Source: Sphingopyxis sp. H115
Lineage (GTDB): Bacteria > Pseudomonadota > Alphaproteobacteria > Sphingomonadales > Sphingomonadaceae
DNA: 64,000 bases
Assembly: GCF_001468465.1 (NCBI RefSeq)
Contig: NZ_LNSA01000015.1
Location: 1 to 64,000 of the forward strand
Reading direction: 5' to 3'
This document shows, in pieces, positions 2,105-35,730 of the stretch (position 1 is the first letter of the stretch; the number at the start of each line of letters is the position of its first letter). The notes beneath the pieces are model-generated. The model searched no databases. It worked only from the letters and a program-made list of their open reading frames with translations, and was not told the origin of the DNA. A program made the translations under genes and the position numbers.

Positions 2105-2120
2105 ACTTAGGTATCTAAGT
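2105..2120. promoter_or_regulatory. Operator-like box A (ACTTAG-N4-CTAAGT)
   Basis: ACTTAGGTATCTAAGT is a palindrome with perfect 6-base arms around GTAT. It sits 16 bases upstream of leuD on the minus strand and about 125 bases upstream of the plus-strand MarR gene, so it could serve both. It is one of seven related boxes in the window. Confidence 0.75.
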
Positions 2121-2245
2121 ATATCGGAAAAATCCCTTTGTCCAAAGATATCGCCGTGTCGAAGCAGCTTGCGGCGCGAATCATAGAGCCCTAAGGTTTG
2201 CATAGCGACACGGCTCCGCCTTGCGGCGGCCGAAGGGGAAAGATC

Positions 2246-2752
2246 TTGGCCAAGAAGAATGAGGGCTTTCGGCATCCGGCCGAATATTACACCAACCCGG
2301 ACAACAGCATCGGCTATCTCGCGCGTATCGTGTTCCGATCCTTTTCGCGCCTGCTCGAACGCGGTACGCTGACACACGACGTGTCAGCGGGGCAGTGGCG
2401 GTTCCTGCGCCAGCTGTGGCGCGAGGACGGGATTACCCAGCGCGAACTCAGCGAACGGGTAGGGATGCGCGAGCCGACCACGGTCGTAGCGCTGAAAGGC
2501 CTCGAAAAGGCCGGCTTCATCACGCGCAAGAAGACTGCCGACGATCGGCGCAAGACCTTCATCCACCTGACCCCTCACGCGAAGAAGCTCGAACTCATCC
2601 TCGCTCCGATGAACGCCGAAGTGCACGAAGTTGCGACGCGCGGGATGAGCGATGAGGAGGTCGAAACGCTGCAGGCGTTGCTGCGCCGCGTAATCGATAA
2701 TCTTGCCGACGAGACTGCGAAGCTTTCGACGCTGTCAGATATCAAGGCCTGA
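2246..2752 (+). CDS. MarR-family transcriptional regulator
   Basis: A winged-helix regulator of about 168 residues. The recognition region ITQRELSERVGMREPTTV, followed by KKTADDRRKTFIHLT (the wing, with the DRR motif), is typical of MarR. I choose TTG 2246 as the start because GGGGAAAG lies just upstream; an in-frame upstream ATG at 2198 would add 16 poorly family-like residues. MarR proteins are dimeric repressors released by small aromatic or CoA-thioester ligands and bind 16-20 bp palindromes. The gene is divergent from leuD with box A between them. It is a good candidate for the protein that reads the repeated ACTTAG-N4-CTAAGT boxes, but the second MarR at 4084-4536 is an equal candidate. 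Confidence 0.85.
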   Translation: MAKKNEGFRHPAEYYTNPDNSIGYLARIVFRSFSRLLERGTLTHDVSAGQWRFLRQLWREDGITQRELSERVGMREPTTVVALKGLEKAGFITRKKTADDRRKTFIHLTPHAKKLELILAPMNAEVHEVATRGMSDEEVETLQALLRRVIDNLADETAKLSTLSDIKA

Positions 2753-2786
2753 TCGCCAAAGACGGTTGCGACCCTCGCGGGCAATA

Positions 2787-2802
2787 GGTTAGTATGCTAA
2801 CT
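2787..2802. promoter_or_regulatory. Operator-like box B (GGTTAG-TATG-CTAACT)
   Basis: A GTTAG/CTAAC palindrome with the same 4-base centre as the other boxes. It ends 20 bases before the TTG start of the FMN reductase gene, a position expected to block promoter or early transcript. Confidence 0.7.
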
Positions 2803-2822
2803 AAATTACCCGGGAGGAAAAA

Positions 2823-3395
2823 TTGGCACGGATTGCAGTCATTGTGGGAAGCACGCGCGACGGATCGTTCAACCGCGCGCTCGGTACGCTTGCGGTTCGC
2901 GCGCTGGAGGCGCATGGCGCAATCGTCACCGATGTCGACCTGTCGGCTTTCGACCTGCCGCTTTATTCGGCGGCGCTCGAAGCGAACGGCTTTCCTCCCG
3001 ATGCGGTGCGGCTGAAAGAGCTTTTCGCCGCGCAGCAGGGCCTGCTCTTTGTATCGCCCGAATATAATGGGTCGGTTTCACCGCTGCTCAAAAATGCGAT
3101 CGACTGGGCATCGCGTCCCACCGGCGACGAATCGCTCGTCGCGCTTACCGCCTATCGCGGCAAGGCGAGCGCGGTCATGTCGGCGTCAATCAGTCCGTTC
3201 GGCGGACTGCGCGGGTTGATGCACCTGCGCCAGATCCTGTCGACCGTCCAGACGCTCGTCATTCCCGAACAGGTGCTGGTGCCGGCGGCGCACGCCGCGT
3301 TCGACGAATCGGGCAAGCTGAAGGAAGCGCTCCCGGCCTCGTTGGTCGACGCGACCGCGGCGCGGCTGGTCGCGGTGGCGAAGGCGATCGGATAG
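2823..3395 (+). CDS. NADPH-dependent FMN reductase family protein
   Basis: The 190-residue flavodoxin-fold protein starts RIAVIVGSTRDGSFNRAL, the phosphate-binding loop of the NADPH-dependent FMN reductase/azoreductase family, and carries the flavin-contact motif SPEYNGS near residue 78. Such proteins use NADPH to reduce FMN or quinone-like compounds, often supplying reduced flavin to monooxygenases. The TTG start at 2823 is chosen because GGGAGG lies five to seven bases upstream. It follows the MarR gene with operator-like box B in the gap, so it has its own promoter. No monooxygenase partner is visible next to it. Confidence 0.85.
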   Translation: MARIAVIVGSTRDGSFNRALGTLAVRALEAHGAIVTDVDLSAFDLPLYSAALEANGFPPDAVRLKELFAAQQGLLFVSPEYNGSVSPLLKNAIDWASRPTGDESLVALTAYRGKASAVMSASISPFGGLRGLMHLRQILSTVQTLVIPEQVLVPAAHAAFDESGKLKEALPASLVDATAARLVAVAKAIG

Positions 3396-4083: not shown

Positions 4084-4536
4084 TTAGGCCTGCCGCTTCG
4101 TCTCGCGCGACGCCCCGATATTATCGCCCCAATCGGCTTCGAGCGTTGCGAGCAGTGCGTCGAAACGATCCTTGCCGAGCTTCGCCGAAAGCTGGTCCGC
4201 GAGTTCGTCCATCGCGGCTTGCGCGTCCTTGCGCATCCGTGCACCGGTATCGGTCAGCGAGACGACCATGTGGCGACGGTCGTCAGGATCGGGGTCGAGC
4301 TTGACGATGCCCAGGCCGACCATCTGATTGATCGTGCTGTGGATCGCCTGCCGCGATACGCCTAGGTTGCGCGCGATATCCGAAGGGCGGACGATGCCGC
4401 TGACGATATTGGTCATCACCATCGATTGCGGGCGGCTGACGTCGGGCCAGCCGCCATCGTGCAGCCGTGCCTGAAGGCCTTCGTCAAGCCAGCAAAAGCG
4501 CTGGAACAGTGCAATGATAAGCTGGTTGGTGCGCAT
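4084..4536 (-). CDS. MarR-family transcriptional regulator
   Basis: This 150-residue winged-helix protein has the recognition helix RPSDIARNLGVSRQAIHSTI (residues about 50-69) and the wing DPDDRRHMVVSLT. It reads divergently from the acyl-CoA ligase operon, with the 150-bp gap holding box C about 105 bases from its start. MarR repressors commonly control such divergent catabolic genes and themselves, and respond to the pathway's CoA thioester or free acid. Along with the MarR at 2246 it is a candidate reader of the seven boxes. Confidence 0.85.
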   Translation of the reverse strand: MRTNQLIIALFQRFCWLDEGLQARLHDGGWPDVSRPQSMVMTNIVSGIVRPSDIARNLGVSRQAIHSTINQMVGLGIVKLDPDPDDRRHMVVSLTDTGARMRKDAQAAMDELADQLSAKLGKDRFDALLATLEADWGDNIGASRETKRQA

Positions 4537-4639: not shown

Positions 4640-4655
4640 ACTTAGCATACTATCT
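4640..4655. promoter_or_regulatory. Operator-like box C (ACTTAG-CATA-CTATCT)
   Basis: An imperfect copy of the box: the left arm ACTTAG is perfect and the right arm is CTATCT. It lies between the divergent MarR gene and the acyl-CoA ligase, ending 31 bases before the ligase ATG. Confidence 0.7.
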
Positions 4656-4686: not shown

Positions 4687-6321
4687 ATGGACGGGTTGAT
4701 GCAGAATGTGCCGCTGACGGTCGACCGGATCATCGATCATGCGGCAAACTGGCACGGCGGACGCGAGATTGTGTCGCGCGATGCGGAGGGGCGCGTTACC
4801 CGTTCGACCTATGCCGACATTCACGCCGACGCAAAGCGCGTATCCAATGCGCTTGCGGCCGAAGGGATCGAGCCCGGCGACCGGATCGCGACGATGGCGT
4901 GGAATGGGGCGCGCCACGTCGCCGCTTGGTACGGCGCGACAGGGATGGGGGCGGTGCTGCATACGCTCAACCCGCGGCTGTTTCTGGAACAGATAGCCTA
5001 TATCGCGAACCATGCCGGCGACCGCATGCTGATCGCCGATCCGGCGACCGCCGATCTGGTCGAGGAGCTGTTGCCGCAGGTTCCGTCTATCGAGAAGGTG
5101 ATTTTCTTTTGCGATGCGGAGTCGATGCCGGAAACGACGTTTCCTGCGGTGGCGTTCGACGACTGGATCGCCGTTCAGTCTGCGGAATATGATTGGGGCG
5201 CTTTCGACGAAAATACCGCGTGCGGGCTTTGCTATACCAGCGGGACGACAGGCAATCCGAAGGGCGTGCTCTATTCGCACCGGTCGAATTATATTCACGC
5301 GCTGATGACCTTGCAGCGCGACGCACTCGCGTTGTCGGCGCGCGACACGGTGCTGCTCGTCGTGCCAATGTATCACGCCAACGCGTGGGGCGTCGTCTAT
5401 TCGGCGCCCGCCGTCGGCGCCAAGCTCGTTCTGCCGGGACAGCGGATGGACGGGGAGTCGATCTACAATCTGATCGAGCAGGAGGGCGTGACCTATTCGG
5501 CTGCGGTCCCGACCGTGTGGCAGATGCTGCTCCAGTATATGCAGGAAAGTGGGAAACGCTTCACGACTTTGGAGCGCGTAACGATCGGCGGTTCGGCGTG
5601 CCCCGAATCGATCATCCGTACTTTTCGCGACGATTATGGCGTCGATGTCATCCAGGGCTGGGGCATGACCGAAACCTCGCCGCTCGGTACCGTGTCGGTG
5701 CCTAATGCTTCTGTCGCCGTGAAATCAGAACCCGAACAGATGGCGTATAAGCTCAAGCAGGGGCGGCTGCTCTGCGGCCTCGAAATGAAGCTGGTCGACG
5801 ATGCGGGAAATCGCCTGCCACACGACGGCAAGACCCCGGGGCGGTTGATGATCAAGGGGCCGACGATCGCCGGTGCCTATTTTGACGGCGCGGGCGGCGA
5901 CGTGCTGGACGAGGAAGGCTTTTTCGATACCGGCGACGTCAGCACGATCGACGCCGAAGGCTATATGCAGATCACCGACCGCGCGAAGGATGTCGTCAAG
6001 TCGGGCGGGGAGTGGATCAGTTCGATCGAGATCGAGAATATCGCGATGGGTCATGAGGCGGTCGCCAACGCCGCAGTAGTCGGGGTTGCGCATCCCAAAT
6101 GGGACGAGCGGCCGATTCTGCTGTGCCAGTTGAAGCCCGGCGCCAGCGCCTCCGCCGACGACCTCAAAGATTTTCTCGACGGTAAGATCGCGCGCTGGTG
6201 GATGCCCGACGACGTGCTGTTCGTCGCGGATATCCCGCTCGGGCCGACGGGCAAGATCGACAAGAAGGCAATCCGTGCGGGGCTGGAGGGTTATGAGCTG
6301 CCCTTTGAAGGCACCCGCTGA
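4687..6321 (+). CDS. AMP-forming acyl-CoA synthetase/ligase
   Basis: The 544-residue ANL-superfamily enzyme activates a carboxylic acid with ATP to an acyl-AMP and then transfers it to CoA. Visible motifs: P-loop TSGTTGNPKG near residue 184, GWGMTETS near 323, DTGD near 413 and the catalytic C-terminal lysine in TGKIDKK near 521. Length and motif order fit medium/long-chain acyl-CoA ligases. ATG 4687 is preferred over upstream in-frame starts because GGGAGAG precedes it and the family N-terminus begins here. It heads a run of six same-strand genes, and box C lies 31 bases upstream. The substrate is not evident; the fatty-acyl subgroup is most similar in look. Confidence 0.9.
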   Translation: MDGLMQNVPLTVDRIIDHAANWHGGREIVSRDAEGRVTRSTYADIHADAKRVSNALAAEGIEPGDRIATMAWNGARHVAAWYGATGMGAVLHTLNPRLFLEQIAYIANHAGDRMLIADPATADLVEELLPQVPSIEKVIFFCDAESMPETTFPAVAFDDWIAVQSAEYDWGAFDENTACGLCYTSGTTGNPKGVLYSHRSNYIHALMTLQRDALALSARDTVLLVVPMYHANAWGVVYSAPAVGAKLVLPGQRMDGESIYNLIEQEGVTYSAAVPTVWQMLLQYMQESGKRFTTLERVTIGGSACPESIIRTFRDDYGVDVIQGWGMTETSPLGTVSVPNASVAVKSEPEQMAYKLKQGRLLCGLEMKLVDDAGNRLPHDGKTPGRLMIKGPTIAGAYFDGAGGDVLDEEGFFDTGDVSTIDAEGYMQITDRAKDVVKSGGEWISSIEIENIAMGHEAVANAAVVGVAHPKWDERPILLCQLKPGASASADDLKDFLDGKIARWWMPDDVLFVADIPLGPTGKIDKKAIRAGLEGYELPFEGTR

Positions 6322-6344
6322 CACAATTACAAACAGGAGAGACG

Positions 6345-7475
6345 ATGATGGACCCGAACGGGATTGAAGGACTGGACGCGCAATTCATCGGGCGCGTGTC
6401 GCCGACCGCGCCGCGCATCCAGGCGGGCGGGCATCCGTGCCAGGGCATCTATTGGACCGAAAGCGGCAAGCGGCCGAAGGTCGCGATCATCGCGACGCAT
6501 TACAACGTCGATTTCTCCGAACATTATATCGCGCCGTATTTCGCGCGGCAGGGGTTCGGCTTCCTCGGCTGGAATACGCGCTACCGCGGGGTCGAGGATC
6601 AGTTCCTGCTCGAACATGCGGTGATCGATATTGGCGTGGGCATGAGGTGGCTCAAGGAAGAGGCGGGCGTCGAACAGATCGTCATTCTTGGCAATTCGGG
6701 CGGCGGTTCGCTGATGGGCGCCTATCAGGCCGAAGCCATCGCGCCGACGCTCACCGATCGGCTGCCCTCGGTCGGGCAGGACGCGCTGGCTAACCTCGTC
6801 AAAGGCGATCTCTACATCAGCTTCAACGCGCATCAAGGCCGGCCCGAAGTGTTGACCGACTGGATGGACGCGTCGGTGATCGACGAAAATGACCCCGTGG
6901 CGACCGACCCCGAACTCGACCCGTTCAATCCCGACAACGGGCCACCCTATTCGGATGCGTTCATCGAAAAATACCGCGCCGCGCAGCGCGCGCGCAATCA
7001 GCGCATCACCGACTGGGCGAAGGCCGAGCTCGCGCGGCTCAACGCGGCGGGCATCCCCGATCGCATCTTTCCGATGTTCCGCTGCTGGGGCGACATCCGA
7101 TGCGTCGATCCGGCGATCGATCCGTCGGACCGCAAGCCGAACTGGTGCTATCGCGGCAATCCGGCGGTCGCGAACCGCACGCCGAGCATCGGGCGCGCCA
7201 ACACGATCAAGACCTGGCTCAACATGTGGAGCCTCGAAACCTCGCCGTGTCAGGGGCAACCGCATCTCGCCAAGCACGATACGCCCGCGCTCGTCGTGCA
7301 GGGAACGGCCGACACCGGCGTTTTCCCCAGCGACGCGCGCAAGATCTTCGATTTCCTCGGGAGCAGCGACAAGAAGCTCGAATTGATCCCCGGGGCGCAT
7401 TATTTCGAGGATTCGATCGAGGAACGGCAGAATGCCGCCGACCTCGTCGGCGCATGGATCCGGGAGAAGCTGTGA
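6345..7475 (+). CDS. Alpha/beta-hydrolase-fold protein
   Basis: The 376-residue protein has a nucleophile elbow GNSGGG near residue 120, a candidate acid in GTADTG and a late histidine in GAHYFED, so a full Ser-Asp-His triad is plausible. The middle part is a large insert rich in WCYRGNP-type aromatic sequence that could form a lid. ATG 6345 (or 6348) has GGAGA upstream. It is the second gene of the ligase operon, 23 bases after the ligase. A role as an esterase, or a hydrolase of a CoA thioester or ring-cleavage product, would fit, but no substrate can be assigned. Confidence 0.8.
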   Translation: MMDPNGIEGLDAQFIGRVSPTAPRIQAGGHPCQGIYWTESGKRPKVAIIATHYNVDFSEHYIAPYFARQGFGFLGWNTRYRGVEDQFLLEHAVIDIGVGMRWLKEEAGVEQIVILGNSGGGSLMGAYQAEAIAPTLTDRLPSVGQDALANLVKGDLYISFNAHQGRPEVLTDWMDASVIDENDPVATDPELDPFNPDNGPPYSDAFIEKYRAAQRARNQRITDWAKAELARLNAAGIPDRIFPMFRCWGDIRCVDPAIDPSDRKPNWCYRGNPAVANRTPSIGRANTIKTWLNMWSLETSPCQGQPHLAKHDTPALVVQGTADTGVFPSDARKIFDFLGSSDKKLELIPGAHYFEDSIEERQNAADLVGAWIREKL

Positions 7476-7476
7476 C

Positions 7477-8448
7477 GTGACGGTGGACGCCGACATCGTG
7501 GACGGGTTGCGCGGCGCCGGTTTGGCGGGCGAGGGCGATATCGTCCTCGAACCGCTCACCGGCGGCGTGTCGTGCGATGTGTGGAAGGTCGAAACGCCGT
7601 TGGGGCCGATCGTCGTCAAGCGTCCGCTGCCGCAGCTTCGCGTCGCGGCCGAATGGCTCGCGCCGGTCGAACGCGGGACGAGCGAGGTGCGCTGGCTGCG
7701 CCGCGCGCGCGGTGTCGATCCGCATATCGCGCCCGAGGTGCTCGCCGAATTGCCGGGCCACGCCTTCGCGATGCGCTTTCTCCCCGGTTGCCCGGTGTGG
7801 AAGGACGAGCTGATGGCGGGGCGGGTCGATCTCGCATTTGCGGCGCAGGTGGGGCAGGGGATCGCCGCTGTGCACGCTGCAACCGCGCATAATGATCGCG
7901 ACCGCGCCGCCTTTCCGAACGACGAGATGTTCCGTGCGCTGCGCGTCGATCCTTTCCTGCTCTATGTTGCGCAGCATGATAGCGAACTCGCGCCCGCGCT
8001 GACCGCGCTCGCCGACGATCTGGCCTCGCGCAAGATCGCGCTCGTTCATGGCGACGTCAGTCCGAAGAATATACTCGTCAGTGCCGATAGCCCTGTCTTC
8101 CTCGATGCTGAATGCGCGGTCTTTGGCGACCCGGCCTTCGACCTTGCCTTCTGCACCACGCATTTGCTGCTGAAGGCGGTATGGTCGGGCGACGCGCGGC
8201 TGAACGCGGCGGCGGCGGCGCTGGTCGACGCCTATCGTTCCGGCATCGGGTGGGAGGATGCTGACGACCTGCTGCTCCGCGCGGGCAAGCTCACCGCCGG
8301 GCTGCTGCTCGCTCGCGTCGAGGGCAAGTCGCCGGCGCCATATCTTACCGATCGTGAACACCGACGCATCGTGCGCGATCAAGCGCGCGCACTGATCGCC
8401 GCGCCGCAACCGATCGACGCGCTTGCTACCAATTGGAAAAGGACATGA
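7477..8448 (+). CDS. APH/choline-kinase-fold phosphotransferase
   Basis: About 323 residues. The catalytic Brenner loop HGDVSPKN near residue 190 and the metal-binding acidic motif FLDAECAVFGDPAFDLA near 208 are those of aminoglycoside-phosphotransferase-fold small-molecule kinases, which use ATP to phosphorylate a hydroxyl group. GTG 7477 is taken as the start, one base after the hydrolase stop, with GGGAG upstream. It sits directly before the enolase-like gene. This suggests that it phosphorylates a hydroxy-acid intermediate rather than an antibiotic, but that is inference from context only. Confidence 0.8.
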   Translation: MTVDADIVDGLRGAGLAGEGDIVLEPLTGGVSCDVWKVETPLGPIVVKRPLPQLRVAAEWLAPVERGTSEVRWLRRARGVDPHIAPEVLAELPGHAFAMRFLPGCPVWKDELMAGRVDLAFAAQVGQGIAAVHAATAHNDRDRAAFPNDEMFRALRVDPFLLYVAQHDSELAPALTALADDLASRKIALVHGDVSPKNILVSADSPVFLDAECAVFGDPAFDLAFCTTHLLLKAVWSGDARLNAAAAALVDAYRSGIGWEDADDLLLRAGKLTAGLLLARVEGKSPAPYLTDREHRRIVRDQARALIAAPQPIDALATNWKRT

Positions 8449-8449
8449 A

Positions 8450-9748
8450 ATGACTTCGCCCATCGCCTCCGTCACCGGCCGCCAGCTATGGGACTCGCGC
8501 GGGCGGCCCACGGTCGAGGCCGAAGTCAAGCTCGCCTCGGGCGCCGTCGGCCGCGCCATTGCGCCCGCGGGCGCTTCGCGCGGCGCGCATGAGGCGATCG
8601 ACCTGCGCGATGGAGGCGCCGCGTTCGGCGGTTTCGGGGTCGCTCGCGCCGTCGCGGGGATCGGATCGGAGATCGCGGGCTCGATAGCCGGGATGGACGC
8701 CCATGATCAGGCGGCGGTCGACGCGGCGCTCTGCGCGCTCGACGGAACCCCGAACAAGGCGCGGCTTGGCGCGAACGCGGTCGTTGCGGTATCGATGGCG
8801 GTGCTTCACGCCGCCGCCGCCGATGCGCGGTTGCCGCTATGGCGCTATCTCGCGGGCGACGCGAAAGTCCGTATCCCGCTCCCCGAAATCCAGATTTTCG
8901 GCGGCGGCGCGCACGCCGGGCGGCGTACCGATGTGCAGGACTTCATGATCATGTGCCCCACGGCAGACAGCTTCCGTCGCGCACTCGAAATCACCGACGA
9001 TGTCTATCGCGCCGCGGGCAGGCTGATGGAGGGCAAGGGGCCGCTGTCGGGCGTCGCCGACGAAGGCGGCTGGTGGCCCAATTTCGCGTCGAACGAGGAT
9101 GCGCTCGACACGCTGACGAAGGCGATCGATGCGAGCGGCTACCGTGCGGGCGAGGATGTCTTCATCTCGCTCGACATTGCTGCCAACGAACTCGGCGACG
9201 CCTCGGGCTACGGTCTCGCGCTCGACGACGGCCGCCTGACGAGCGAGGCGATGGCCGCGCGCATCGTCGAATGGGCGGGCCGTTATCCGATCCTGTCGAT
9301 CGAGGATCCGGCAGGGCAGGACGACTGGACGGCGATGGCCGCAGTCACCGCCGCGATCGGCGACAAGGTGCAGATCATCGGCGACGATGTGCTCGTCACC
9401 AACGCCGAACGCGTGGCCCGCGCCGGCGACGCGGGGGTGTGCAACGCCGCGCTGATCAAGGTCAACCAGGTCGGCACCGTGACCGAAGCCAAGGCCGCGC
9501 TCGACGCCGCCGTGGCGCGTCGATGGGGTACGATCGTGTCGGCGCGTTCGGGCGAGAGCGAGGATGTCACGATCGCGCACCTCGCGACGGGCTGGAACGC
9601 CGGACAGCTCAAGGTCGGCAGTTTCACCCGCTCCGAACGCATGGCGAAGTGGAACGAGATGCTCCGGATCGAGGAAGCAATGGGCGCCGATGCCGAATTT
9701 GCGGGCTTCTCCGCCTTCGCCGGTTCGATCGGCCGGGTCGCGGCATGA
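8450..9748 (+). CDS. Divergent enolase paralogue
   Basis: The 432-residue protein is an enolase-superfamily member of the phosphopyruvate-hydratase type along its whole length: GRQLWDSRGRPTVEAEV start, GASRGAHEA loop, H155, DEGG with E205, SIEDP, GDDVLVTN, the LIKVNQVGTVTE lysine and the final KVGSFTRSER. Two normally invariant positions differ: the glutamate of the QEF motif is Asp164 (VQDFM), and the histidine of SHRSGE is Ala365 (SARSGE). It is therefore probably not the glycolytic enolase. ATG 8450 follows the kinase stop by one base and its stop overlaps the next start (ATGA). Likely role: dehydration of a 2-phospho-hydroxyacid or a related compound, not proven. Confidence 0.85.
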   Translation: MTSPIASVTGRQLWDSRGRPTVEAEVKLASGAVGRAIAPAGASRGAHEAIDLRDGGAAFGGFGVARAVAGIGSEIAGSIAGMDAHDQAAVDAALCALDGTPNKARLGANAVVAVSMAVLHAAAADARLPLWRYLAGDAKVRIPLPEIQIFGGGAHAGRRTDVQDFMIMCPTADSFRRALEITDDVYRAAGRLMEGKGPLSGVADEGGWWPNFASNEDALDTLTKAIDASGYRAGEDVFISLDIAANELGDASGYGLALDDGRLTSEAMAARIVEWAGRYPILSIEDPAGQDDWTAMAAVTAAIGDKVQIIGDDVLVTNAERVARAGDAGVCNAALIKVNQVGTVTEAKAALDAAVARRWGTIVSARSGESEDVTIAHLATGWNAGQLKVGSFTRSERMAKWNEMLRIEEAMGADAEFAGFSAFAGSIGRVAA

Positions 9749-10665
9749 TCGTCCTTCACGCACGCCCGAGTCCGGGTTTCCGCGAGGCCGTCGATGCGAT
9801 CTTCGGCGCCGGCGTCGTCGTGCATGCCGATGAATCTGCGCCGCTCGACGCGGTGGCGGGCGAGATCACCGCGCTGCTCCATGTGCTCACCCCGGTGACC
9901 GCCGACTTCATCGCTTCGGCGCCGAAACTGAAGCTGATCCAGAAGCTCGGTGTCGGGGTGAACACGATCGCGCTCGACGCTGCCCGCGACCACGGTGTCG
10001 CAGTGTGCAACATGCCCGGTACGAACAGTCAGGCGGTCGCCGAAATGGCGTTGTCGCTGATGATGGCGGTGCTGCGCCGCACCTGCTTCTTCGACGCGCG
10101 CACGCGAGCGGGAGAGGGCTGGACCGCTGACCCGTCCGAACTCGATCAGGTCGGCGAGATCGGCGGGCGTACTATCGGCCTCGTCGGCTTCGGCAATTCG
10201 GCGCAATTGCTCGCGCCCGCGCTCGCCGCGCTCGGCGCAGAAGTCGCCTACACCGCGCGCAGTCCGCGCGACGTGCCCTATGAATATTTGCCGCTCGACG
10301 ACCTGCTCGCCACCAGCGACATCGTCTCGCTGCACATGCCGCTTACCGACGCGACGCGCGGGAGCATCGATCCTTTCGCAATGAAGAAGGGCGCGGTGCT
10401 GGTGAACACCGCGCGCGGCGAACTGGTTGACGAGGCGAAGTTGGTTGAGGCGCTCACCAGCGGCCACCTGCGCGGCGCAGGCCTCGACGTCTTCGCCGAG
10501 GAGCCGCTGCCGCGCGGCAATCCTTTGCTCGGCCTGCCCAACGCGGTGCTCGCCCCCCACATCGCCTGGCTCACTCCCGAAACGCTCGTGCGAAGCCTGA
10601 CGGTGGCTCACGAAAATTGCCGACGCCTCGCTGCCCGCGAACCGCTCCTGCATCAGGTGGTCTAA
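9745..10665 (+). CDS. D-2-hydroxyacid dehydrogenase (NAD-dependent)
   Basis: The 306-residue protein resembles phosphoglycerate/hydroxypyruvate dehydrogenases. Seen: Rossmann loop GLVGFGNSA near residue 148 (the third glycine of GxGxxG is replaced), catalytic Arg in NTARGELVDE near 225, Glu in DVFAEEP and the catalytic His in APHIAWLTPE near 272. The family oxidises or reduces D-2-hydroxy acids with NAD(P). Its ATG overlaps the enolase stop by four bases and its stop overlaps the next gene by one base, so translation is tightly coupled. It probably handles a 2-oxo or 2-hydroxy acid made by the same module. Confidence 0.88.
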   Translation: MIVLHARPSPGFREAVDAIFGAGVVVHADESAPLDAVAGEITALLHVLTPVTADFIASAPKLKLIQKLGVGVNTIALDAARDHGVAVCNMPGTNSQAVAEMALSLMMAVLRRTCFFDARTRAGEGWTADPSELDQVGEIGGRTIGLVGFGNSAQLLAPALAALGAEVAYTARSPRDVPYEYLPLDDLLATSDIVSLHMPLTDATRGSIDPFAMKKGAVLVNTARGELVDEAKLVEALTSGHLRGAGLDVFAEEPLPRGNPLLGLPNAVLAPHIAWLTPETLVRSLTVAHENCRRLAAREPLLHQVV

Positions 10666-25277: not shown

Positions 25278-25287
25278 GATTGACTCC

Positions 25288-25683: not shown

Positions 25684-25692
25684 GTCTCTCTC

Positions 25693-27979: not shown

Positions 27980-28747
27980 ATGGACATCAAAGGCAAAAGC
28001 GCGATCGTGACGGGGTCGGCGGGCGGCATCGGCCGTGCCACCGCGGTGATGCTGGCGCAGCGCGGCGCGGCCGAAATCAGTCTGGTCGATGTCAAGGCGG
28101 ACGCGCTCGCCGAAACCGCGCGGCTTGTCGAAGCGGAGGGCGCGCGGGCGGCGATGCACGCTCTCGACCTCGCCGACGTTCCTGCGGTCGAAACCTGGTT
28201 CAGGGCGTATGGCAACGTTGACATCCTCCACAACAATGCCGGCGTCGTCTCCGGCCTCCCGCAATTTCCCGATGTCGATGCGGCGCGGATCCGCAGGATC
28301 ATCGACGTCAACATCACCTCGCTGGTCGCCGCAACGCAGGTCGCAGTGCAGAAAATGAAGTCGCGCGGGGGCGGGGTGATCATCAACACCGTATCGACCG
28401 TCGCGCTGGGCACCGGCTTTTACGACGCGATGTATGCGACGACCAAGGCGGCGGTGATGATGTTCACCCGCTGCTGCGCGCCGTTGAAGGACGAATATAA
28501 CGTCCGCGTCGTGGGCATGTTGCCCGGGCTGGTCGACACGCCGATCCTCGACACGACCGGCGCGGGCGGCAAGTCCGAATGGATGAAGACCGTGCTCGCG
28601 AACAACGAGGCGTGCGTGCCGGAGGATATTGCGGGCGGTGTAGCCATGTTGATCGAGGACGACAGCCTTGCCGGGGGCGACTGGGTGGCGGTCCGGCGGC
28701 TGCAGGGGCAGGTCGAATATCAGTGGGGGCACGCCAATACCCCGTAA
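27980..28747 (+). CDS. Short-chain dehydrogenase/reductase
   Basis: The 255-residue classical SDR has TGSAGGIG near residue 12, NNAG near 85, catalytic Ser in TVSTVALG and YATTK near 154. ATG 27980 follows GGGAGAGAAG. It is monocistronic, divergent from the MFS operon, and shares box E. It is not closely similar to the SDR at 25693, so two distinct oxidations are likely. A perfect 25-bp inverted repeat follows the gene. Confidence 0.9.
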   Translation: MDIKGKSAIVTGSAGGIGRATAVMLAQRGAAEISLVDVKADALAETARLVEAEGARAAMHALDLADVPAVETWFRAYGNVDILHNNAGVVSGLPQFPDVDAARIRRIIDVNITSLVAATQVAVQKMKSRGGGVIINTVSTVALGTGFYDAMYATTKAAVMMFTRCCAPLKDEYNVRVVGMLPGLVDTPILDTTGAGGKSEWMKTVLANNEACVPEDIAGGVAMLIEDDSLAGGDWVAVRRLQGQVEYQWGHANTP

Positions 28748-28841: not shown

Positions 28842-29552
28842 CTAGCGCGTGGGCGCTTCCAGCATATTCTTGCCGAACAAATTCGACCATTGTTCCTCGG
28901 TCAGTATCGGACGCGCGCTCGACAGGTTGGCGGCGTTCTTGACGTCGGTTCCGGCGATCACCGCGGGCCGCTCGCCGATCCGCGCGAACCAGTCCGCGAC
29001 CGCGGGATAATCGTCGAGCGTCAGCCCGATCGCGCGGATCGCGCGCGTCCACGGCCAGCAGGCAATATCGGCGACCGAATATTCCTCGGCCAGGTAATCG
29101 GCTTCGCTCAGCCGCCCGTTGAGGACATGGAGCAGCCGCAGCGTCTCGTTGCGATAGCGTTCGACCGGATAAGCCTGTCCCTCGGGCGCATAGCGGATGA
29201 AATGATGCGCCTGACCTTGCATCGGTCCGAAACTTGCCATCTGCCACATCAGCCATTGCTGCGCTTGGGCACGCCCGCGCGTGCTCCCTGGAAGCAATTG
29301 GCCAGTCTTCTCAGCGAGGTAAAGCAGGATTGCCCCGCTTTCGAACACCGGCAACGGCGAGCCGCCACCGATCGGGTCGTGATCGACGATTGCGGGCAGG
29401 CGGCCGTTCGGATTGATCCGCCGAAATTCGGGGGTCAGATGATCGCCCTCGAGCATGTTCATTGCGATCAGATTATGCGGCAGGCCGACCTCTTCGAGCA
29501 TGATCGATACCTTGTGGCCGTTCGGCGTGGGCGTAAAATAAACGTCGATCAT
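28842..29552 (-). CDS. Glutathione S-transferase, YghU/nu-like
   Basis: The 236-residue GST has the N-terminal motif TPTPNGHKVSIMLEE characteristic of the YfcG/YghU (nu) group, whose Thr/Asn contacts replace the usual Tyr/Ser/Cys, followed by RLPAIVDHDP and ESGAILLYLAEK. Nu-class enzymes bind two glutathione or a disulfide and act on disulfides or ether bonds. Its ATG overlaps the NTF2 stop by four bases. It is the third gene after the TonB receptor, and is one of three similar paralogues in the window. Confidence 0.88.
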   Translation of the reverse strand: MIDVYFTPTPNGHKVSIMLEEVGLPHNLIAMNMLEGDHLTPEFRRINPNGRLPAIVDHDPIGGGSPLPVFESGAILLYLAEKTGQLLPGSTRGRAQAQQWLMWQMASFGPMQGQAHHFIRYAPEGQAYPVERYRNETLRLLHVLNGRLSEADYLAEEYSVADIACWPWTRAIRAIGLTLDDYPAVADWFARIGERPAVIAGTDVKNAANLSSARPILTEEQWSNLFGKNMLEAPTR

Positions 29553-30046
29553 GCGGACTTTCCTTCGGCAAAAATGGCGCGCGCGGCGGCGAAAGCGGCT
29601 TCGAACGCGTCCTTGCCGGCGGGATAGGCGACGACGGTCAAAGTGACGCCGGCAATCTTCCACCCGTTCTGCCGCACCAGCCGGTGGGTGTAGCGGCCGA
29701 TCAGGTCGCCCAGCAAAGCGCGATCCTCGACCTCGACGACATGGACGGCATCGACGATGCTCGTCACCGTCGCACGGTTGCCGTCGATCGCGGTGTCCAT
29801 ATTGTGCAATTGGTGCGCCGTCGCGTCGAAACCTTCGAGCGCCCTGCAACGTTCCGTCCATTCGTCGGCTGGCACCGTCGCGGCAAGCGATCCGATCGCG
29901 CCATAATCGATTGCGACTTCGTCGGTGAACAGCGCGCGATAGCCGGCCCAGTCGCGCGCATCGAGCGCGCTTGCATAACAGGTCACGACCGCCATCGCCG
30001 CTTTCCTGTCGAGGAAAGCATCGATGGCGGCCGATCCCTGGGACAT
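29549..30046 (-). CDS. NTF2-like/SnoaL-like protein (nuclear transport factor 2 fold)
   Basis: The 165-residue protein has the N-terminal helix AVVTCYASALDARDWAGYRA and FTDEVAIDYG, the usual start of the SnoaL-like group that includes scytalone dehydratase and ring-hydroxylating dioxygenase beta subunits. No alpha subunit is nearby, so a dehydratase or isomerase role is more likely. It follows the TonB receptor by 11 bases and precedes the GST, forming a receptor-NTF2-GST operon. Confidence 0.83.
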   Translation of the reverse strand: MSQGSAAIDAFLDRKAAMAVVTCYASALDARDWAGYRALFTDEVAIDYGAIGSLAATVPADEWTERCRALEGFDATAHQLHNMDTAIDGNRATVTSIVDAVHVVEVEDRALLGDLIGRYTHRLVRQNGWKIAGVTLTVVAYPAGKDAFEAAFAAARAIFAEGKSA

Positions 30047-30057
30047 CGTAATCGAAC

Positions 30058-32340
30058 CTAGAATTTGATCCCGGCCTCGACCGAAATATTGCGCGTCGGT
30101 TCGAGGTAAAGGATCGCGCGCGGAACCGGCGTGATCGGGAAGGGCAGGTTGAACGCGCTGCCGATCGTCTTCTGGTTGGTCAGGTTCTTGCCGACCAGCG
30201 CGAGGTGCCAGCTATTGTCCCGATCGGCGAGCTGGACGCGCAGGTCGAGCTTCACATAGCCGTCCTGGACGCCGAAGATCGGGCTCTGATTGTCTGAATT
30301 GAAATATTTGGACCGCCCGGCCGCAACGCCGGTGACGTCGAGCTTCAAGTCTTGCGACATGTCGAAACGCGCGTGTGCGGTGACGCTGCCCGTCCATTTC
30401 GACGAATAGGCGACCGGATAGCCGGCGAGGTTGTTCGTCGCGGGCGTACAGCCGACCTGCGAGGCAAGGCAGGCCGCGCCCGGGTAATCGTCATATTTGA
30501 TGTCCGAATAGGCGGCCGACGCGCTGATGTCGAAATTGTCGATCGGGAAAATGCTGAGCGATCCTTCGACCCCCTTCGACGTCGCGGCCGCGGCGTTGCC
30601 GGTCAGATAGCTCGACGTCGCGGGCTGGTAGACCGAAACCTGCAAATCCTTGAACTTGGTGTGATAGAGCGAGACGTTCGCGACGACCTTGCCATCGAAC
30701 AGCGTCGACTTGATCCCCGCCTCGAAATTCTCCGACCGTTCGGGCTCGAAGGTGAAGGTGGCGTTCGTCGTGCCGAGCGTGTTCGACACGAAACCGCCCG
30801 ACTTCGAACCGCGGCCCCACGTGCCATAGATCATCACGCGCGGCGCGACGTCATATTGCAGCGTCACCGACGGATCGACATTGCCTTCGCTGATCTTGCC
30901 GACCGCGCTCGAAATCGGGCGCAACGCAAAAGGCTGGCCGTTGACGCCATTCGAACCATAGACGAGGCGCGCAGCAAAATCGCCGTCCTTCTTGGTGTGG
31001 CTGTACCGCAGGCTACCGATCGCGCGGAAGGCGTCGGTGACGTTGAACGTGCCCTGTCCGAACACCGACCAGCTTTCGGCTTCCTGGTTGAATACGCTGT
31101 CGATGCGGCCGAAATAGGGGCCGGTAAAGACGCCCGGGATAGTCAGGCTCGGCAGGTCGAAGCCCTGATATTGTTCCAGCGTGTAATTCGACTTGTCGTA
31201 ATAGGCGCCGACGATGAATTCGAACGTCTTGCCGGTCGGCGACAACAGGCGGACTTCCTGCGAGAATTGGTCGAAGCGTTCGGGGAAGGCGTTATAAACC
31301 GAGTTGGCGGTAAAGGCGCCGCCGCTGTTCGGGATCGTCTGGTCGAACCCGTTGATGATCTTCGACTTGAACCAGCTATAGCCGGTGACCGAGGTCAGCG
31401 TGAAATCGCCGAGCGCGAGGTTGCCGACGCCCGAGATCATCACCGACTTGTTGTCATTGCCCTCGTCACCCAGCGCCGAGCGTTCGAGATAGCGCGTCGT
31501 CTGCGGATCCTGCCCGCTGGTCAGCGGGCTCGATACGGTGATGCCGCCGTTGACTTCGCGGTTCCCATATTCGACCTTCGCGGTATAGTCGAAATTGGCC
31601 GACGGCTCCCATTTCAGCGTCAGGCGCAGCAACTGCGACTTGATTTCGGGATCGTCGTGATCGGTCGCACGGTTATAGATATAGCCGTCCTGGTTGACGA
31701 TCTTGTACGCAAGGCGCGCGCCCAGCGTGTCGGTGATCGGTCCCGACAGATAGCCCGAAAAATCGGTGCCCTTGTGGTCGAAATTATAGAGGCCGGTGAT
31801 CGCGCCCTCGAAATCTTTCGTCGGGCCAGCCGACACCACGCTGACCGCGCCCGCGGCGGTGTTCTTGCCGAACAGCGCGCCCTGCGGCCCGCGCAGCACC
31901 TCGACGCGCGCAAGGTCGAAGAACGGGGCCTGCGCCTGCCGGTTGCGGCCGGCATAGATGCCGTCGACATAGAGCGACACCGACTGGTCGAAGGCGAAGT
32001 TCGCCGGCGGCGAGCCGAAGCCGCGGATGTAGATGACGTCGTTGCCCGCGGTCGACTGGACAAAGACGTTCGGCGTGTAGTTCATCACCGCCTTGATATC
32101 GCTGGTATTGAACTCGGCGAGCTTGGCGCCGCTGACGACTTCCATCGAAATCGGCACATTCTGCAGATTCTGCTCGCGCTTCTGCGCGGTCACGATGATC
32201 TCGTTGGTGTTGCTGTCGTCGACGTTCGACGCATCGGGCGCGGCGTCGGCGGGGGCCGTCTGCGCCATCGCCGGCGCGGCATTGGCGAGCATCGCGATCG
32301 CCGCCACGCCGGACAGCAGGAACTGGTTATGCGCCTTCAT
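30058..32340 (-). CDS. TonB-dependent outer-membrane receptor
   Basis: The 760-residue protein has a signal peptide (ending ANAAPAMAQ), a TonB-box-like EIIVTAQKREQ near residue 48, plug-domain features (VLRGPQGALFGKNTAAG) and a 22-strand-type barrel ending in a C-terminal aromatic-rich strand with final Phe. The VLRGPQG/TAAG form is the catabolite-type receptor frequent in sphingomonads. ATG 32340 follows GGAGG with six bases between; a GTG six bases upstream is possible. Both palindrome types (boxes at 32394 and 32409) lie upstream. It probably takes up the regulon's substrate. Confidence 0.92.
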   Translation of the reverse strand: MKAHNQFLLSGVAAIAMLANAAPAMAQTAPADAAPDASNVDDSNTNEIIVTAQKREQNLQNVPISMEVVSGAKLAEFNTSDIKAVMNYTPNVFVQSTAGNDVIYIRGFGSPPANFAFDQSVSLYVDGIYAGRNRQAQAPFFDLARVEVLRGPQGALFGKNTAAGAVSVVSAGPTKDFEGAITGLYNFDHKGTDFSGYLSGPITDTLGARLAYKIVNQDGYIYNRATDHDDPEIKSQLLRLTLKWEPSANFDYTAKVEYGNREVNGGITVSSPLTSGQDPQTTRYLERSALGDEGNDNKSVMISGVGNLALGDFTLTSVTGYSWFKSKIINGFDQTIPNSGGAFTANSVYNAFPERFDQFSQEVRLLSPTGKTFEFIVGAYYDKSNYTLEQYQGFDLPSLTIPGVFTGPYFGRIDSVFNQEAESWSVFGQGTFNVTDAFRAIGSLRYSHTKKDGDFAARLVYGSNGVNGQPFALRPISSAVGKISEGNVDPSVTLQYDVAPRVMIYGTWGRGSKSGGFVSNTLGTTNATFTFEPERSENFEAGIKSTLFDGKVVANVSLYHTKFKDLQVSVYQPATSSYLTGNAAAATSKGVEGSLSIFPIDNFDISASAAYSDIKYDDYPGAACLASQVGCTPATNNLAGYPVAYSSKWTGSVTAHARFDMSQDLKLDVTGVAAGRSKYFNSDNQSPIFGVQDGYVKLDLRVQLADRDNSWHLALVGKNLTNQKTIGSAFNLPFPITPVPRAILYLEPTRNISVEAGIKF

Positions 32341-32408: not shown

Positions 32409-32424
32409 CCTTAGTATACTAATG
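32409..32424. promoter_or_regulatory. Operator-like box F (CCTTAG-TATA-CTAATG)
   Basis: The core TTAGTATACTAA at 32411-32422 is a perfect palindrome. It lies between the divergent TonB receptor (68 bases) and DUF3237 gene (39 bases). Confidence 0.75.
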
Positions 32425-32463: not shown

Positions 32464-32961
32464 ATGAACGAAGAAAATTCGCACGCGCCGCTGGCGACCC
32501 GTCACCTTTGCACCGTCGAGTTCGAAGTGGGCGGCGGGATCATCGGGATCGGTGCGTCGCCCTTTGGTGACCAGCGACTCGGCTATATCAGCGGCGGCCG
32601 CTTTTTCGGTTCCCGGATCAACGGCATGGTCCTTCCCGGCGGCGGCAACTGGTCACGCAGCGGACGGCTCGGCGACGGTGCCTCGGTCGGCACCTTCGAC
32701 GCCCGCGCGGTGTGGCAAACCGACGACGGCGACCTCATCTACTTGAGCTACACCGGCCGCAACATCATCCCCGACGATGTGCGCGCGACCTTTGCCGATC
32801 CGGCGACGCCCGACGCCGATCCCTCGCGCTATTATCTGCGAATCGCGCCGGTGTTCGAGACCGCGAGCGCGAAATATAGCTGGCTCAACGGCGTGCTCGC
32901 GGTGGGCGTCGGCGAGCGCACTGCTTTTGGCGTCCGCCACGTGATCCACGAGATATTGTGA
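32464..32961 (+). CDS. DUF3237 family protein
   Basis: The 165-residue protein matches DUF3237 by its pattern: an early TVEFEVGG, the GGRFFGSRINGMVLPGGGNW core near residues 46-65, an ARAVWQTDDGDLIYLSYTGR strand pair and a C-terminal FETASAKYSWLNGV stretch. The family is a small beta-barrel, often located in aromatic and steroid degradation clusters; no reaction is established. ATG 32464 has ACAGGA upstream. It shares one base with the next gene (TGATG), a GST, so the two are coupled. Confidence 0.85.
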   Translation: MNEENSHAPLATRHLCTVEFEVGGGIIGIGASPFGDQRLGYISGGRFFGSRINGMVLPGGGNWSRSGRLGDGASVGTFDARAVWQTDDGDLIYLSYTGRNIIPDDVRATFADPATPDADPSRYYLRIAPVFETASAKYSWLNGVLAVGVGERTAFGVRHVIHEIL

Positions 32962-33686
32962 TGATCGACCTTCACTATTCGGCAACGCCGAACGGACAGA
33001 AGATCGCGATCATGCTCGAGGAAATCGGCGAGCCCTATCGCGTCATTCCCTATGACATCTTCGCGGGCGACCAGCTGACCGCGGCATTCGGGCGCATCAA
33101 TCCGAACCACAAACTGCCGGCGATCGTCGACCTCGACCCGGCAGGCGGGGGCGATCCGATCACCGTTTTTGAATCGGGCGCGATCCTGCAATATCTGGCA
33201 GAAAAAAGCGGGCGCTTCCTGCCCGCATCGGGCGCGGCGCGCGCCGCGACCTTGTCGTGGCTCAACTGGCAGGTCGCGGGACTCGGGCCGATGGGCGGGC
33301 AGGCGAGTCATTTCCTCCGCTACGCCCCCGCGGGGCAGGATTATGCGATCGAACGTTACACGAAAGAACTCACGCGCCTGCTCACGGTGCTCGAAAAGCG
33401 GCTGGAAAAAAGCACCTATGTCGCGGGCGAGAATTACACGATTGCCGACATGGCGATCTGGCCCGGCCGCGCGTCGGCGTTCGTGATGGGGTTGGGGCTC
33501 GATGAATGGCCCGCGATGCGCGGCTGGTTTGAACGCATCCGCGAACGCCCTGCGGTGGCGCGCGCGACGGCGCGCGGCGACCTGAAGGCACCCGCCAAAT
33601 ATATCGGCCGCCACCAGCAGCTTGATGATGCGGAATGGTCGAACATGTTTGGCGATGCGAACCATGCGGTGGTGCGGGGGGATTGA
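32961..33686 (+). CDS. Glutathione S-transferase, YghU/nu-like
   Basis: About 241 residues. The N-terminus SATPNGQKIAIMLEEIGEPY and the NHKLPAIVDLDP and ESGAILQYLAEK segments put it in the YghU/nu-like group, like the GSTs at 28842 and 33783. The C-terminal half has the GENYTIADMAIWP capping motif. Start is ATG 32961 or GTG 32958. It follows the DUF3237 gene and is convergent with the next GST. Likely role: glutathione-dependent cleavage or reduction of a pathway intermediate. Confidence 0.88.
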   Translation: MIDLHYSATPNGQKIAIMLEEIGEPYRVIPYDIFAGDQLTAAFGRINPNHKLPAIVDLDPAGGGDPITVFESGAILQYLAEKSGRFLPASGAARAATLSWLNWQVAGLGPMGGQASHFLRYAPAGQDYAIERYTKELTRLLTVLEKRLEKSTYVAGENYTIADMAIWPGRASAFVMGLGLDEWPAMRGWFERIRERPAVARATARGDLKAPAKYIGRHQQLDDAEWSNMFGDANHAVVRGD

Positions 33687-33782
33687 GGTCCGAATATCCG
33701 AAAACGACCGGTATCAGCCGTCGCCTTCGGGGGGGCGACGATTAGGTAGCGTCCGCCCCCCAACCCCAAAAAGGACGATCTC

Positions 33783-34487
33783 TTACCGCTTCACATGCTG
33801 GCGGTCGCCCCACAGGATCGCACGATGCTCGTCGGTAAAGCCGGTGAGGCCGCCCTCGATCGTCTCGGCGCGTGCGACGTCCACGGTCATGCCCTCGGCG
33901 ACCGCGGGGCGTTCGAGCATCGCGGCGCCCCAGCGATCGACGTTGGGGAAACGCCCCGCCTTTTCGATCAGCTGGCGGCGCAGATAGGGCAGGGTCGCCA
34001 TATCGGCGATCGTATAGTCTTCGCCCGCAAGCCATTCGGCCTCGCCCAGGCGCTTGTCGAGCACCATCATCAGCCGGTCGACCTCGCGGCTGTACCGCGC
34101 GATGGCATAGTCGTGCCGGTCCTTGGCATAATGGGTGAAATGCGCCTCCTGCCCGAACATCGGGCCGACCCCCGACACCTGGAACATCAGCCATTGCCAG
34201 CAGATCGCGCGCTTCACCGGATCGACCGGCACGAAGCGTCCCGTCTTTTCGGCAAGATACAGCAGGATCGCGCCGGTTTCCCACAGCGCGAAGCGTTCGC
34301 CACCCGGCCCTTCGTCGTCGACGATCACCGGCGTCTTGTTATTCGGGTTGAGCGCAAGGAATTCGGGGGTCAGCTGGTCGCCCGCGAGGATGTCAATATA
34401 GTCCAGCTGCCAGTCGAGCCCCATTTCGAGCAGCGCGATCGCGATCTTGCGCGCATTGGGGGTCGGGCCGCCATAAAGCGTGATCAT
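33783..34487 (-). CDS. Glutathione S-transferase, YghU/nu-like
   Basis: The 234-residue GST has the N-terminal GPTPNARKIAIALLE, NNKTPVIVDDEG and ETGAILLYLAEK segments of the nu-like group. ATG 34487 is chosen because it follows the CaiB stop closely. It is the second gene of a CaiB-GST operon. Three similar paralogues within 6 kb suggest local duplication followed by change of substrate. Confidence 0.88.
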   Translation of the reverse strand: MITLYGGPTPNARKIAIALLEMGLDWQLDYIDILAGDQLTPEFLALNPNNKTPVIVDDEGPGGERFALWETGAILLYLAEKTGRFVPVDPVKRAICWQWLMFQVSGVGPMFGQEAHFTHYAKDRHDYAIARYSREVDRLMMVLDKRLGEAEWLAGEDYTIADMATLPYLRRQLIEKAGRFPNVDRWGAAMLERPAVAEGMTVDVARAETIEGGLTGFTDEHRAILWGDRQHVKR

Positions 34488-34491
34488 CGCG

Positions 34492-35655
34492 TCAAACCTC
34501 CCGCCCAAGCCAGCGTTTCAGCACCTCGGCGCTATCCTGTCCGACAGTCAGCGGGGCAGGGCGCCGCACGCTGCCCGGCGTCGCCGACAGTTTCGGAAAG
34601 ATGCCCTGCATCCGGATTTCGCCGAGTTCCGCGTCGGGAACGCTGACCAGCGCCTCGCGTGCGGCGAAATGCGGGTCGGCCAGCATATCCTCGGCATCGA
34701 AGATGCGGCCCGCCGGAACCCCCGCCTCGACCATCTTCTTCTCCAGCTCTTCGATCGTCAGCGTGCTTGTCCACTCGCCGATCAGCGCGTCGAGCTCTTC
34801 CTGACGCACCCCGCGCGCGCGGTGCGTCGCGTAACGTTCGTCGACGGCGAGTTCGGGCCGCCCCATCGCCGCCGCCAGCCGCGCGAAGACGCCGTCCTGA
34901 TTGGCGCCGATCAGATATTCGCCATCCTTGCACGGATAGACGTTCGACGGTGCGATCCCGGGCAGGGTGGAGCCGGTGCGGCGGCGCTTGGTGCCGCTCG
35001 CCGAATAGTCGGACACAGTCGATTCCATCACCTGCAGCACTGCCTCATAGAGTGCGGAATCGACGATCTGGCCCTCGCCGGTCTTGCTGCGATGATGGAG
35101 CGCCGCGAGCGCGCCCATGCACCCGTAAGTCGCAGCGAGCGTGTCGCCGATCGACACGCCCATGCGCGCGGGCGGCAGGTCGGGATAACCGACGATGCCG
35201 CGCCAGCCGCCCATGGCCTCGCCGATTCCGCCGAAGCCCGCGCGCGCCGAATAGGGTCCAGTCTGACCGTAACCCGACACGCGCACGACGATCAGCCCGG
35301 AGTTGGTCTTGCGCAACTCCTTTGGATCGAGGTTCCATTTTTCGAGCGTGCCCGGGCGGAAATTCTCGATGAGGATATCGGCCTTGGCGATCAGCTCGCG
35401 TGCGAGCGCCTGTCCCTCTTCGCTGCGCAGGTCGACGGCTACCGAATATTTGTTGCGTGCGATTACGCGCCACCAGCTCGGTTTGTCGCCTTGACCCCAG
35501 TTGCGCATCTGGTCGCCCGTCACCGGGGGTTCGAGCTTGACGATTTCGGCGCCCATGTCGCCGAGGAGCTGGCCGCAGAAGGGCCCCGCTATCAGCTGCC
35601 CCATTTCGACGACCTTGATGCCTTCCAGCGCGCCCCCGCTGCCCGTCTCGCTCAT
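34492..35655 (-). CDS. CaiB/BaiF-type (class III) CoA transferase
   Basis: The 387-residue protein has the family N-terminus GIKVVEMGQLIAGPFCGQLL, GAEIVKLEPP, ENFRPGTLEKW near residue 100 and a candidate catalytic Asp in VSIGDTLAATYG near residue 161. Class III enzymes transfer CoA between acids through an aspartyl anhydride. ATG 35655 follows AAAGGAATGAT. Four bases separate it from the downstream GST, and it is divergent from the HMG-CoA-lyase-like gene with box G between. It gives the cluster an ATP-free way of activating an acid besides the two ligases. Confidence 0.9.
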   Translation of the reverse strand: MSETGSGGALEGIKVVEMGQLIAGPFCGQLLGDMGAEIVKLEPPVTGDQMRNWGQGDKPSWWRVIARNKYSVAVDLRSEEGQALARELIAKADILIENFRPGTLEKWNLDPKELRKTNSGLIVVRVSGYGQTGPYSARAGFGGIGEAMGGWRGIVGYPDLPPARMGVSIGDTLAATYGCMGALAALHHRSKTGEGQIVDSALYEAVLQVMESTVSDYSASGTKRRRTGSTLPGIAPSNVYPCKDGEYLIGANQDGVFARLAAAMGRPELAVDERYATHRARGVRQEELDALIGEWTSTLTIEELEKKMVEAGVPAGRIFDAEDMLADPHFAAREALVSVPDAELGEIRMQGIFPKLSATPGSVRRPAPLTVGQDSAEVLKRWLGREV

Positions 35656-35714
35656 ATCATTCCTTTCGCGGCCGACTCTGGTAAGACGGCCTGCCTCGCC
35701 CATGGCCATTGTAT

Positions 35715-35730
35715 ACTTAGAATGCTATGT
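35715..35730. promoter_or_regulatory. Operator-like box G (ACTTAG-AATG-CTATGT)
   Basis: An imperfect copy of the box in the divergent gap, 59 bases from the CaiB start and 43 bases from the lyase start. Confidence 0.7.

Follow-up and report, generated by a model that had tools for sequence, protein, structure and literature searches.

The window analysed here is a stretch of 64,000 nucleotides at the start of contig NZ_LNSA01000015.1 (contig C15) of Sphingopyxis sp. H115, and it carries a catabolic gene cluster in which seven copies of a 16-bp palindromic box (boxes A–G) lie in the promoter gaps. The box is close to ACTTAGtATnCTAAGT, with a core of TTAG-N4-CTAA and A/T-rich surroundings. Two genes of the MarR family stand among the operons, marR1 (2246–2752, + strand), whose product is proposed below as the regulator, and marR2 (4084–4536, − strand). 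The longest open reading frame of marR1 begins at 2198 (TTG), the likely start being the TTG at 2246. Gene families were assigned with Pfam and NCBIfam, and co-transcription within operons was assumed from gene order.

The seven 16-mers named in the original prediction, which was made on this DNA from its letters, are all present. Box A (ACTTAGGTATCTAAGT, 2105–2120), with perfect palindromic arms, occupies the divergent gap between a leuD-like gene (1504–2088, −) and marR1, and box B (GGTTAGTATGCTAACT, 2787–2802) lies between marR1 and a gene of the NADPH-dependent FMN reductase family (2823–3395, +). Box C (ACTTAGCATACTATCT, 4640–4655) separates marR2 from a presumed operon on the + strand (4687–11357) that encodes an acyl-CoA ligase, an alpha/beta hydrolase (6345–7475), an APH-type kinase, an enolase, a 2-hydroxyacid dehydrogenase and a second hydrolase. 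Box D (GCTTAGTATTCTATCT, 12522–12537) is placed between a MetE-like gene (cobalamin-independent methionine synthase domain; 11432–12490, −) and the gene of a second acyl-CoA ligase, AcsD (12571–14136, +). Box E (ACTTAGATATTTAAGT, 27913–27928) stands between a presumed operon on the − strand (22449–27872; major facilitator superfamily (MFS) transporter, short-chain dehydrogenase/reductase (SDR), SnoaL, CMD, SMP-30, glutathione transferase (GST) and glyoxalase-family proteins) and an SDR gene (27980–28747, +). Box F (CCTTAGTATACTAATG, 32409–32424) lies between presumed operons for a TonB receptor, SnoaL and GST (28842–32340, −) and for DUF3237 and GST proteins (32464–33686, +), and box G (ACTTAGAATGCTATGT, 35715–35730) between those for a CoA-transferase III and a GST (33783–35655, −) and for an HMG-CoA-lyase-like protein and an aldo/keto reductase (35774–37619, +).

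These positions alter several details of the prediction. Divergent gaps hold six of the seven boxes rather than four, box B being the sole exception. Full ACTTAG left arms, attributed to most boxes, are found in four of the seven, and a distance of 16–68 bases to the start codon is correct for 11 of the 13 flanking genes and wrong for marR1 (125 bases, from the start at 2246) and marR2 (103 bases). The 14–22 kb block and the part of the window beyond 36 kb are free of boxes in a matrix scan, as had been claimed, and the same scan detected none in the 35 kb of C15 that follow the window. A palindromic operator of about 16–20 bp is what is expected of the MarR family, and the seven boxes are 16-bp palindromes in promoter gaps.

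The number of boxes in the window is far beyond chance. The loose pattern TTAGNNNNCTAW gave 10 matches at 7 places, against 0.22 expected (100 shuffles, largest 2); the places are boxes A–D, F and G and a weak look-alike at 2183–2194 (− strand). This look-alike (2181–2196), with matrix scores of 8.1 and 12.6, was not counted as a box. Box E, with the core TTAG-N4-TTAA, falls outside TTAGNNNNCTAW and was recovered by the matrix. Two matrices were used, in whose training sites the TTAG/CTA letters are fixed by the selection rule. With the first (167 sites from relatives, the window itself held out) the seven boxes scored 21.1–36.1; the next site of the window reached 8.1, and ten Markov windows gave 3.2 at best. 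The second (64 sites, exclusively from genera other than Sphingopyxis) tests the window more cleanly and gave 25.8–33.7 for the seven boxes and 12.6 for the next site in the 64 kb. With the first matrix the single boxes scored 32.0 (A), 34.5 (B), 36.1 (C), 35.8 (D), 27.1 (E), 21.1 (F) and 31.5 (G); with the second, A scored 32.1 and F 25.8. In the whole genome (4.49 Mb in 63 contigs; genome-wide counts were made with IUPAC patterns) the tighter pattern TTAGNATNCTAW occurs at six places, five in the cluster and one on contig C55, and its control gave 0.

That the boxes go with the cluster emerged from 80 named loci that surround homologues of MarR1 (the top 80 out of 134; site threshold, score of at least 15). 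Where at least three other cluster genes are present, a box was found in 65 of 65 loci; the 167-site matrix was partly trained on these tested loci (L077–L120 and L137; L127 and L136 through genomes G150 and G074), and outside its training the count is 22 of 22. Where fewer than three are present, a box was found in 3 of 15. The sites lie outside the aligned coding stretches, which cover 51% of the sequence, in 263 of 265 cases, and the reversed control yielded one site over the 80 loci. Grouped by MarR1 identity, a box by regular expression was seen in 45/47 loci at 78% or more, 10/15 at 67–76% and 9/18 at 62% or less, with 193, 31 and 18 such boxes versus 14, 5 and 5 in the control; in close relatives within Sphingopyxis, these counts also take in the look-alike that lies 34–65 bases ahead of marR1.

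Both in other genera and outside the order, boxes are conserved in front of the same operons, and they stay with the cluster where it is rearranged or split. In five genomes (G293, G122, G101, G252 and G284) they precede the same operons as in the window, some genomes missing some boxes. The block from the TonB receptor to the MFS transporter is inverted in G293 relative to the window and the boxes have moved along with it. Where the HMG-CoA-lyase/CoA-transferase pair lies away from marR1, by 1.06 Mb of contig in G122 and 1.8 Mb in G293, it still has its box. A leuC-like gene of G074 also has one, with 2.3 Mb of contig between the gene and marR1 (less on a circular chromosome); this gene may be a housekeeping copy, since at 58% identity it is as distant from the gene of the window as likely housekeeping copies are. 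Gene-by-gene mapping of 17 of the 80 loci showed the same gene set, with boxes, in Phenylobacterium loci, and boxes before the hydrolase or a TonB receptor in two metagenome-assembled genomes (MAGs), one from Pseudomonadales (L147) and one gammaproteobacterial (L151). G277 and G085 have box-like sites before leuC, from which no support was taken: they overlap a different dyad, the congeners G242, G201 and G150 lack them, and the leuC genes behind them are only 59% identical to that of the window. A further box-like site (G021:C2:201337, locus L207; score 25.9) lies in a genome that has MarR1 and lacks the cluster hydrolase, and no match to a window protein was found in the 15 kb compared there (1e-15).

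That one MarR protein governs one catabolic regulon, as was originally proposed, is the best-supported reading of this comparative evidence, namely the co-occurrence of box and cluster, the boxes that follow the promoters and the position of almost all sites outside aligned coding stretches. The prediction left open which of the two MarR proteins this would be, and the evidence favours MarR1, of which the boxes are the predicted operators with a probability of roughly 0.86. MarR1 matches the MarR winged helix-turn-helix family (Pfam PF01047) with 55.2 bits against a cut-off of 24.6. Among 298 family genomes, sampled evenly out of a larger set, orthologues of at least 67% identity occur in 13, the own genome included, and four further genomes reach an E value of 1e-20 at identities of 41% or less. 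The cluster hydrolase (at least 71%) is found in nine genomes, and MarR1 accompanies it in all nine. A predicted operator before its own gene is seen as well, box A lying in the leuD/marR1 gap at 125 bases from the start used. Of the 18 loci whose MarR1 is at most 62% identical, seven have a box 114–153 bases ahead of the gene; these are five of the six named Phenylobacterium/Caulobacteraceae loci (L142 is the exception) and two alphaproteobacterial MAGs. The REPTTV stretch of MarR1, which the MarR fold in general would place in the recognition helix, is invariant in the 13 orthologues, box-less genomes included.

Alternatively, MarR2 could be the common regulator, or the boxes could be shared by both proteins. 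The gene of MarR2 adjoins box C, and orthologues of at least 64% are present in eight of the nine hydrolase genomes, which counts against an exclusive role of MarR1 and leaves room for a shared one. The genome without it is that of Parasphingopyxis lamellibrachiae (G074), in which no MarR2 match was found at 1e-15, yet the cluster is kept, with 10 boxes in a 40-kb region (mismatch rule) and the distant one before leuC, 11 in total. In addition, it is marR1 that boxes A and B flank, and that a box precedes in five of the six Phenylobacterium/Caulobacteraceae loci. Control by MarR2 is therefore judged improbable, and marR2 is possibly a target of box C rather than the gene of the common regulator.

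Further observations weigh against MarR1 as the protein that binds the boxes, or against the regulon itself. A box accompanies fewer than three cluster genes in L081, L108 and L155. In two of the 18 distant loci the only site before marR1 is near −205 to −212, and in nine the 260 bases ahead of the gene hold no site. Of the 13 genomes that carry a close MarR1, four (G277, G085, G021 and G242) show no box within 1.5 kb of it, and the genome of G242 holds no TTAGNATNCTAW match. The cluster hydrolase was not found at 1e-60 in these four genomes; since they carry MarR1 with neither a nearby box nor this hydrolase, either the targets of MarR1 are others in these genomes or protein and box are less tightly paired. 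The same combination, a MarR1 orthologue without cluster hydrolase and without boxes nearby, was observed in some Sphingosinicella genomes (L210, which is G242, and L041, L044 and L046), and in G242 an APH-kinase gene follows the MarR1 orthologue. Such box-less orthologues, and the fact that the motif was assigned to MarR1 by neighbourhood, an indirect route, would suit a regulator encoded outside the cluster. Against this stand the occurrence of MarR1 in every genome with the cluster hydrolase and in only four others at 67% or more, the box before marR1 itself, and the TTAG-N4-CTAA core, a known operator type of MarR/SlyA proteins in the portions of the literature consulted. An external regulator is thus considered even less probable than MarR2.

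Genome-wide pattern counts and promoter geometry are also less than clear-cut. In the own genome the loose pattern gave 22 matches at 15 places (seven of them within the first 36 kb of contig C15) versus 86 in the reversed control, and with no genome-wide enrichment it was rejected as a sole criterion. Counts of TTAGNATNCTAW against the control were 4 vs 2 in G252, 4 vs 3 in G074 and 7 vs 3 in G122, and two Sphingopyxis genomes without MarR1 (G042 and G224) have one match each. Predicted promoters in the 13 oriented gaps score a mean of 6.63 against 6.01 for controls, 5 of 13 reaching the control's 95% level, which is a modest difference. The lack of enrichment, and −10-like hexamers within several boxes, could be taken to mean that the boxes are promoter elements (e.g. 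the −10 of one promoter class) or chance palindromes. Promoter elements, however, would not explain a symmetry that extends over 16 bases with conserved arms (the inner TTAG/CTA letters being fixed by site selection), nor why the divergent gaps contain one central box each and not two. Moreover, TTAGNATNCTAW is confined in the own genome to the cluster and contig C55, and the IUPAC patterns located few strong sites before unrelated genes of this genome. This last explanation is very improbable indeed, and operators of MarR1 are retained as the preferred reading. The other loose-pattern places of the genome have low matrix scores and were set aside (C3, 0.2; C6, 4.0 and −2.7; C13, −2.4; C24, 3.7; C34, 2.2). 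Two sites of higher score were noted, one inside the 3′ end of a called gene (C18:67645, 19.3) and one that overlaps only an open reading frame of 104 residues (C5:224457, 19.0).

The box on contig C55 (9253–9268) reaches a matrix score of 37.7. In Sphingopyxis sp. JAI128 (L076) the counterparts of C55 and of the start of C15 fall in one locus, with a box 4.9 kb before marR1 and, behind it, genes for an APH-type kinase, an acyl-CoA dehydrogenase and LeuC. Because this kinase matches the end of C55 and this dehydrogenase the first 89 bases of the window, the C55 box is very probably the eighth box of the same cluster, and C55 its left flank. The window begins accordingly with a leuC paralogue (95–1507, +), one of three leuC-like genes in the genome, whose counterpart in JAI128 stands downstream of the kinase and dehydrogenase genes behind the eighth box. 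The join of C55 and C15 is deduced from this relative, as contig C32 has the same kinase start at its end: C32 and C55 (L030 and L031) both finish with 231 bases, 99% identical, from the beginning of an APH-kinase gene. This gene is duplicated and probably broke the assembly. A weak palindromic box (C32:48337–48352; 14.4) precedes the duplicated start on C32.

The arrangement of boxes and predicted promoters suggests how the switch could work. The best-placed predicted core promoters have their −10 inside or adjoining a box; box C covers a predicted −10 (TTGCAA-N17-TACTAT), and 80% or more of 37 orthologous promoters retain the TTGC upstream of it. In the proposed scenario a MarR1 dimer would sit on each box with one recognition helix per TTAG half-site, in the manner of SlyA, and would block RNA polymerase, since several boxes cover or adjoin predicted −10/−35 elements. 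Without substrate, the TonB receptor, the MFS transporter, the CoA-activating enzymes, the central enzymes and marR1/marR2 would be off. MarR1 would then be released by a metabolite of the pathway (other catabolic MarR proteins respond to CoA thioesters or carboxylates, and the same may hold here), and the eight box-bearing regions (seven in the window and one on C55) would be turned on together. Repression with release by a metabolite is inferred by analogy with the repressors CouR and DesR, discussed below.

Some of the genes behind the boxes could bear on the nature of the pathway. The enolase (8423–9748; 472.9 bits against a curated cut-off of 300) is encoded in the catabolic operon, between the APH-type kinase and the 2-hydroxyacid dehydrogenase (9739–10665), and the set of kinase, enolase and dehydrogenase recurs in Phenylobacterium loci. 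It is speculated that dehydrogenase, kinase and enolase form a branch from hydroxypyruvate via glycerate to phosphoenolpyruvate. The HMG-CoA-lyase-like protein exceeds its curated cut-off as well (295.1 vs 246). Searches of the Protein Data Bank (PDB) with the hydrolase, the kinase and the MetE-like protein returned general folds that pointed to no substrate. PinX, a DUF3237 protein, is described in the consulted part of its source as resembling the decarboxylases PhcF and PhcG (PMC12607616); a lignin-dimer pathway, which this likeness might suggest, was considered as a possibility. The block at 14518–22331 encodes proteins of 1485 and 428 residues, both without a Pfam match, and an HAD-UbiA protein. 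The box-free 14–22 kb block, which interrupts the cluster, is probably an insertion: G293 and G101 lack it at this place, and other cluster genes follow their second ligase gene within 100 bases.

Taken together, the balance tips slightly towards a conserved, undescribed catabolic regulon, built on a SlyA-type operator and MarR1 and common to Sphingomonadales, Caulobacterales and some Gammaproteobacteria, with the alpha/beta hydrolase, the MetE-like protein, the APH-type kinase, a dedicated enolase, the 2-hydroxyacid dehydrogenase, glutathione transferases and the TonB receptor as recurring members. If this is true, the box could serve to list the pathway's genes in each genome, remote ones as well; about 30 catabolic cluster genes and the distant pieces in other genomes would be tied to one switch, and a testable list of pathway genes and a candidate biosensor would result. 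The type of switch is ordinary and well known; the breadth of its conservation is the interesting part.

Among the matches listed from the open-licence literature, no title or abstract start describes such a regulon or operator in sphingomonads, and the sphingomonad repressor PheR is discussed, in the section seen, as a protein of IclR type whose site differs. HpaR, the MarR repressor of 4-hydroxyphenylacetate catabolism, is the second-best NCBIfam match of MarR1 by score. MarR1 is nevertheless not HpaR by the curated model (56.8 bits vs 121.2; TIGR02337), and no 4-hydroxyphenylacetate genes were recognised among the Pfam and NCBIfam family matches of the cluster. A parallel in architecture is CouR of Rhodococcus jostii RHA1, for which the consulted excerpt reports one inverted repeat in the couN, couR, couT and couH promoters that overlaps the predicted −35 (PMC4737184). 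CouR, and likewise FerC of SYK-6 as far as the excerpts go, resembles what is proposed for MarR1 as a MarR repressor with one inverted repeat across several catabolic promoters, but the CouR box (cATTGA-N5-TCAATg) is unrelated in sequence to the boxes found here, and its ligand is given there as p-coumaroyl-CoA. DesR of Sphingobium sp. SYK-6 is, in the accessible portion of its description, a MarR-type protein that represses catabolic genes and its own gene via inverted repeats (PMC6888825). Its operators GTTTGTGTCACATAC and GTTTGTGTAACATAC differ in sequence from the present boxes, and the targets named in that portion are desB, ligM and desR. The operator itself resembles that of SlyA, whose consensus is quoted in the part consulted as TTAGCAAGCTAA and later as TTAN6TAA (PMC5797941). 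SlyA and RovA, MarR proteins of Enterobacteriaceae, have in the passages available the same TTAG/CTAA half-sites and 4-base spacing as the boxes of the window, and the reported autorepression of SlyA (PMC6401476, seen in part) has its likeness in the box before marR1. MarR1 differs from SlyA by the curated model (43.1 bits vs a cut-off of 120; NCBIfam NF002926), and whereas the SlyA regulon consists of horizontally acquired silenced genes, that predicted for MarR1 is a catabolic cluster.

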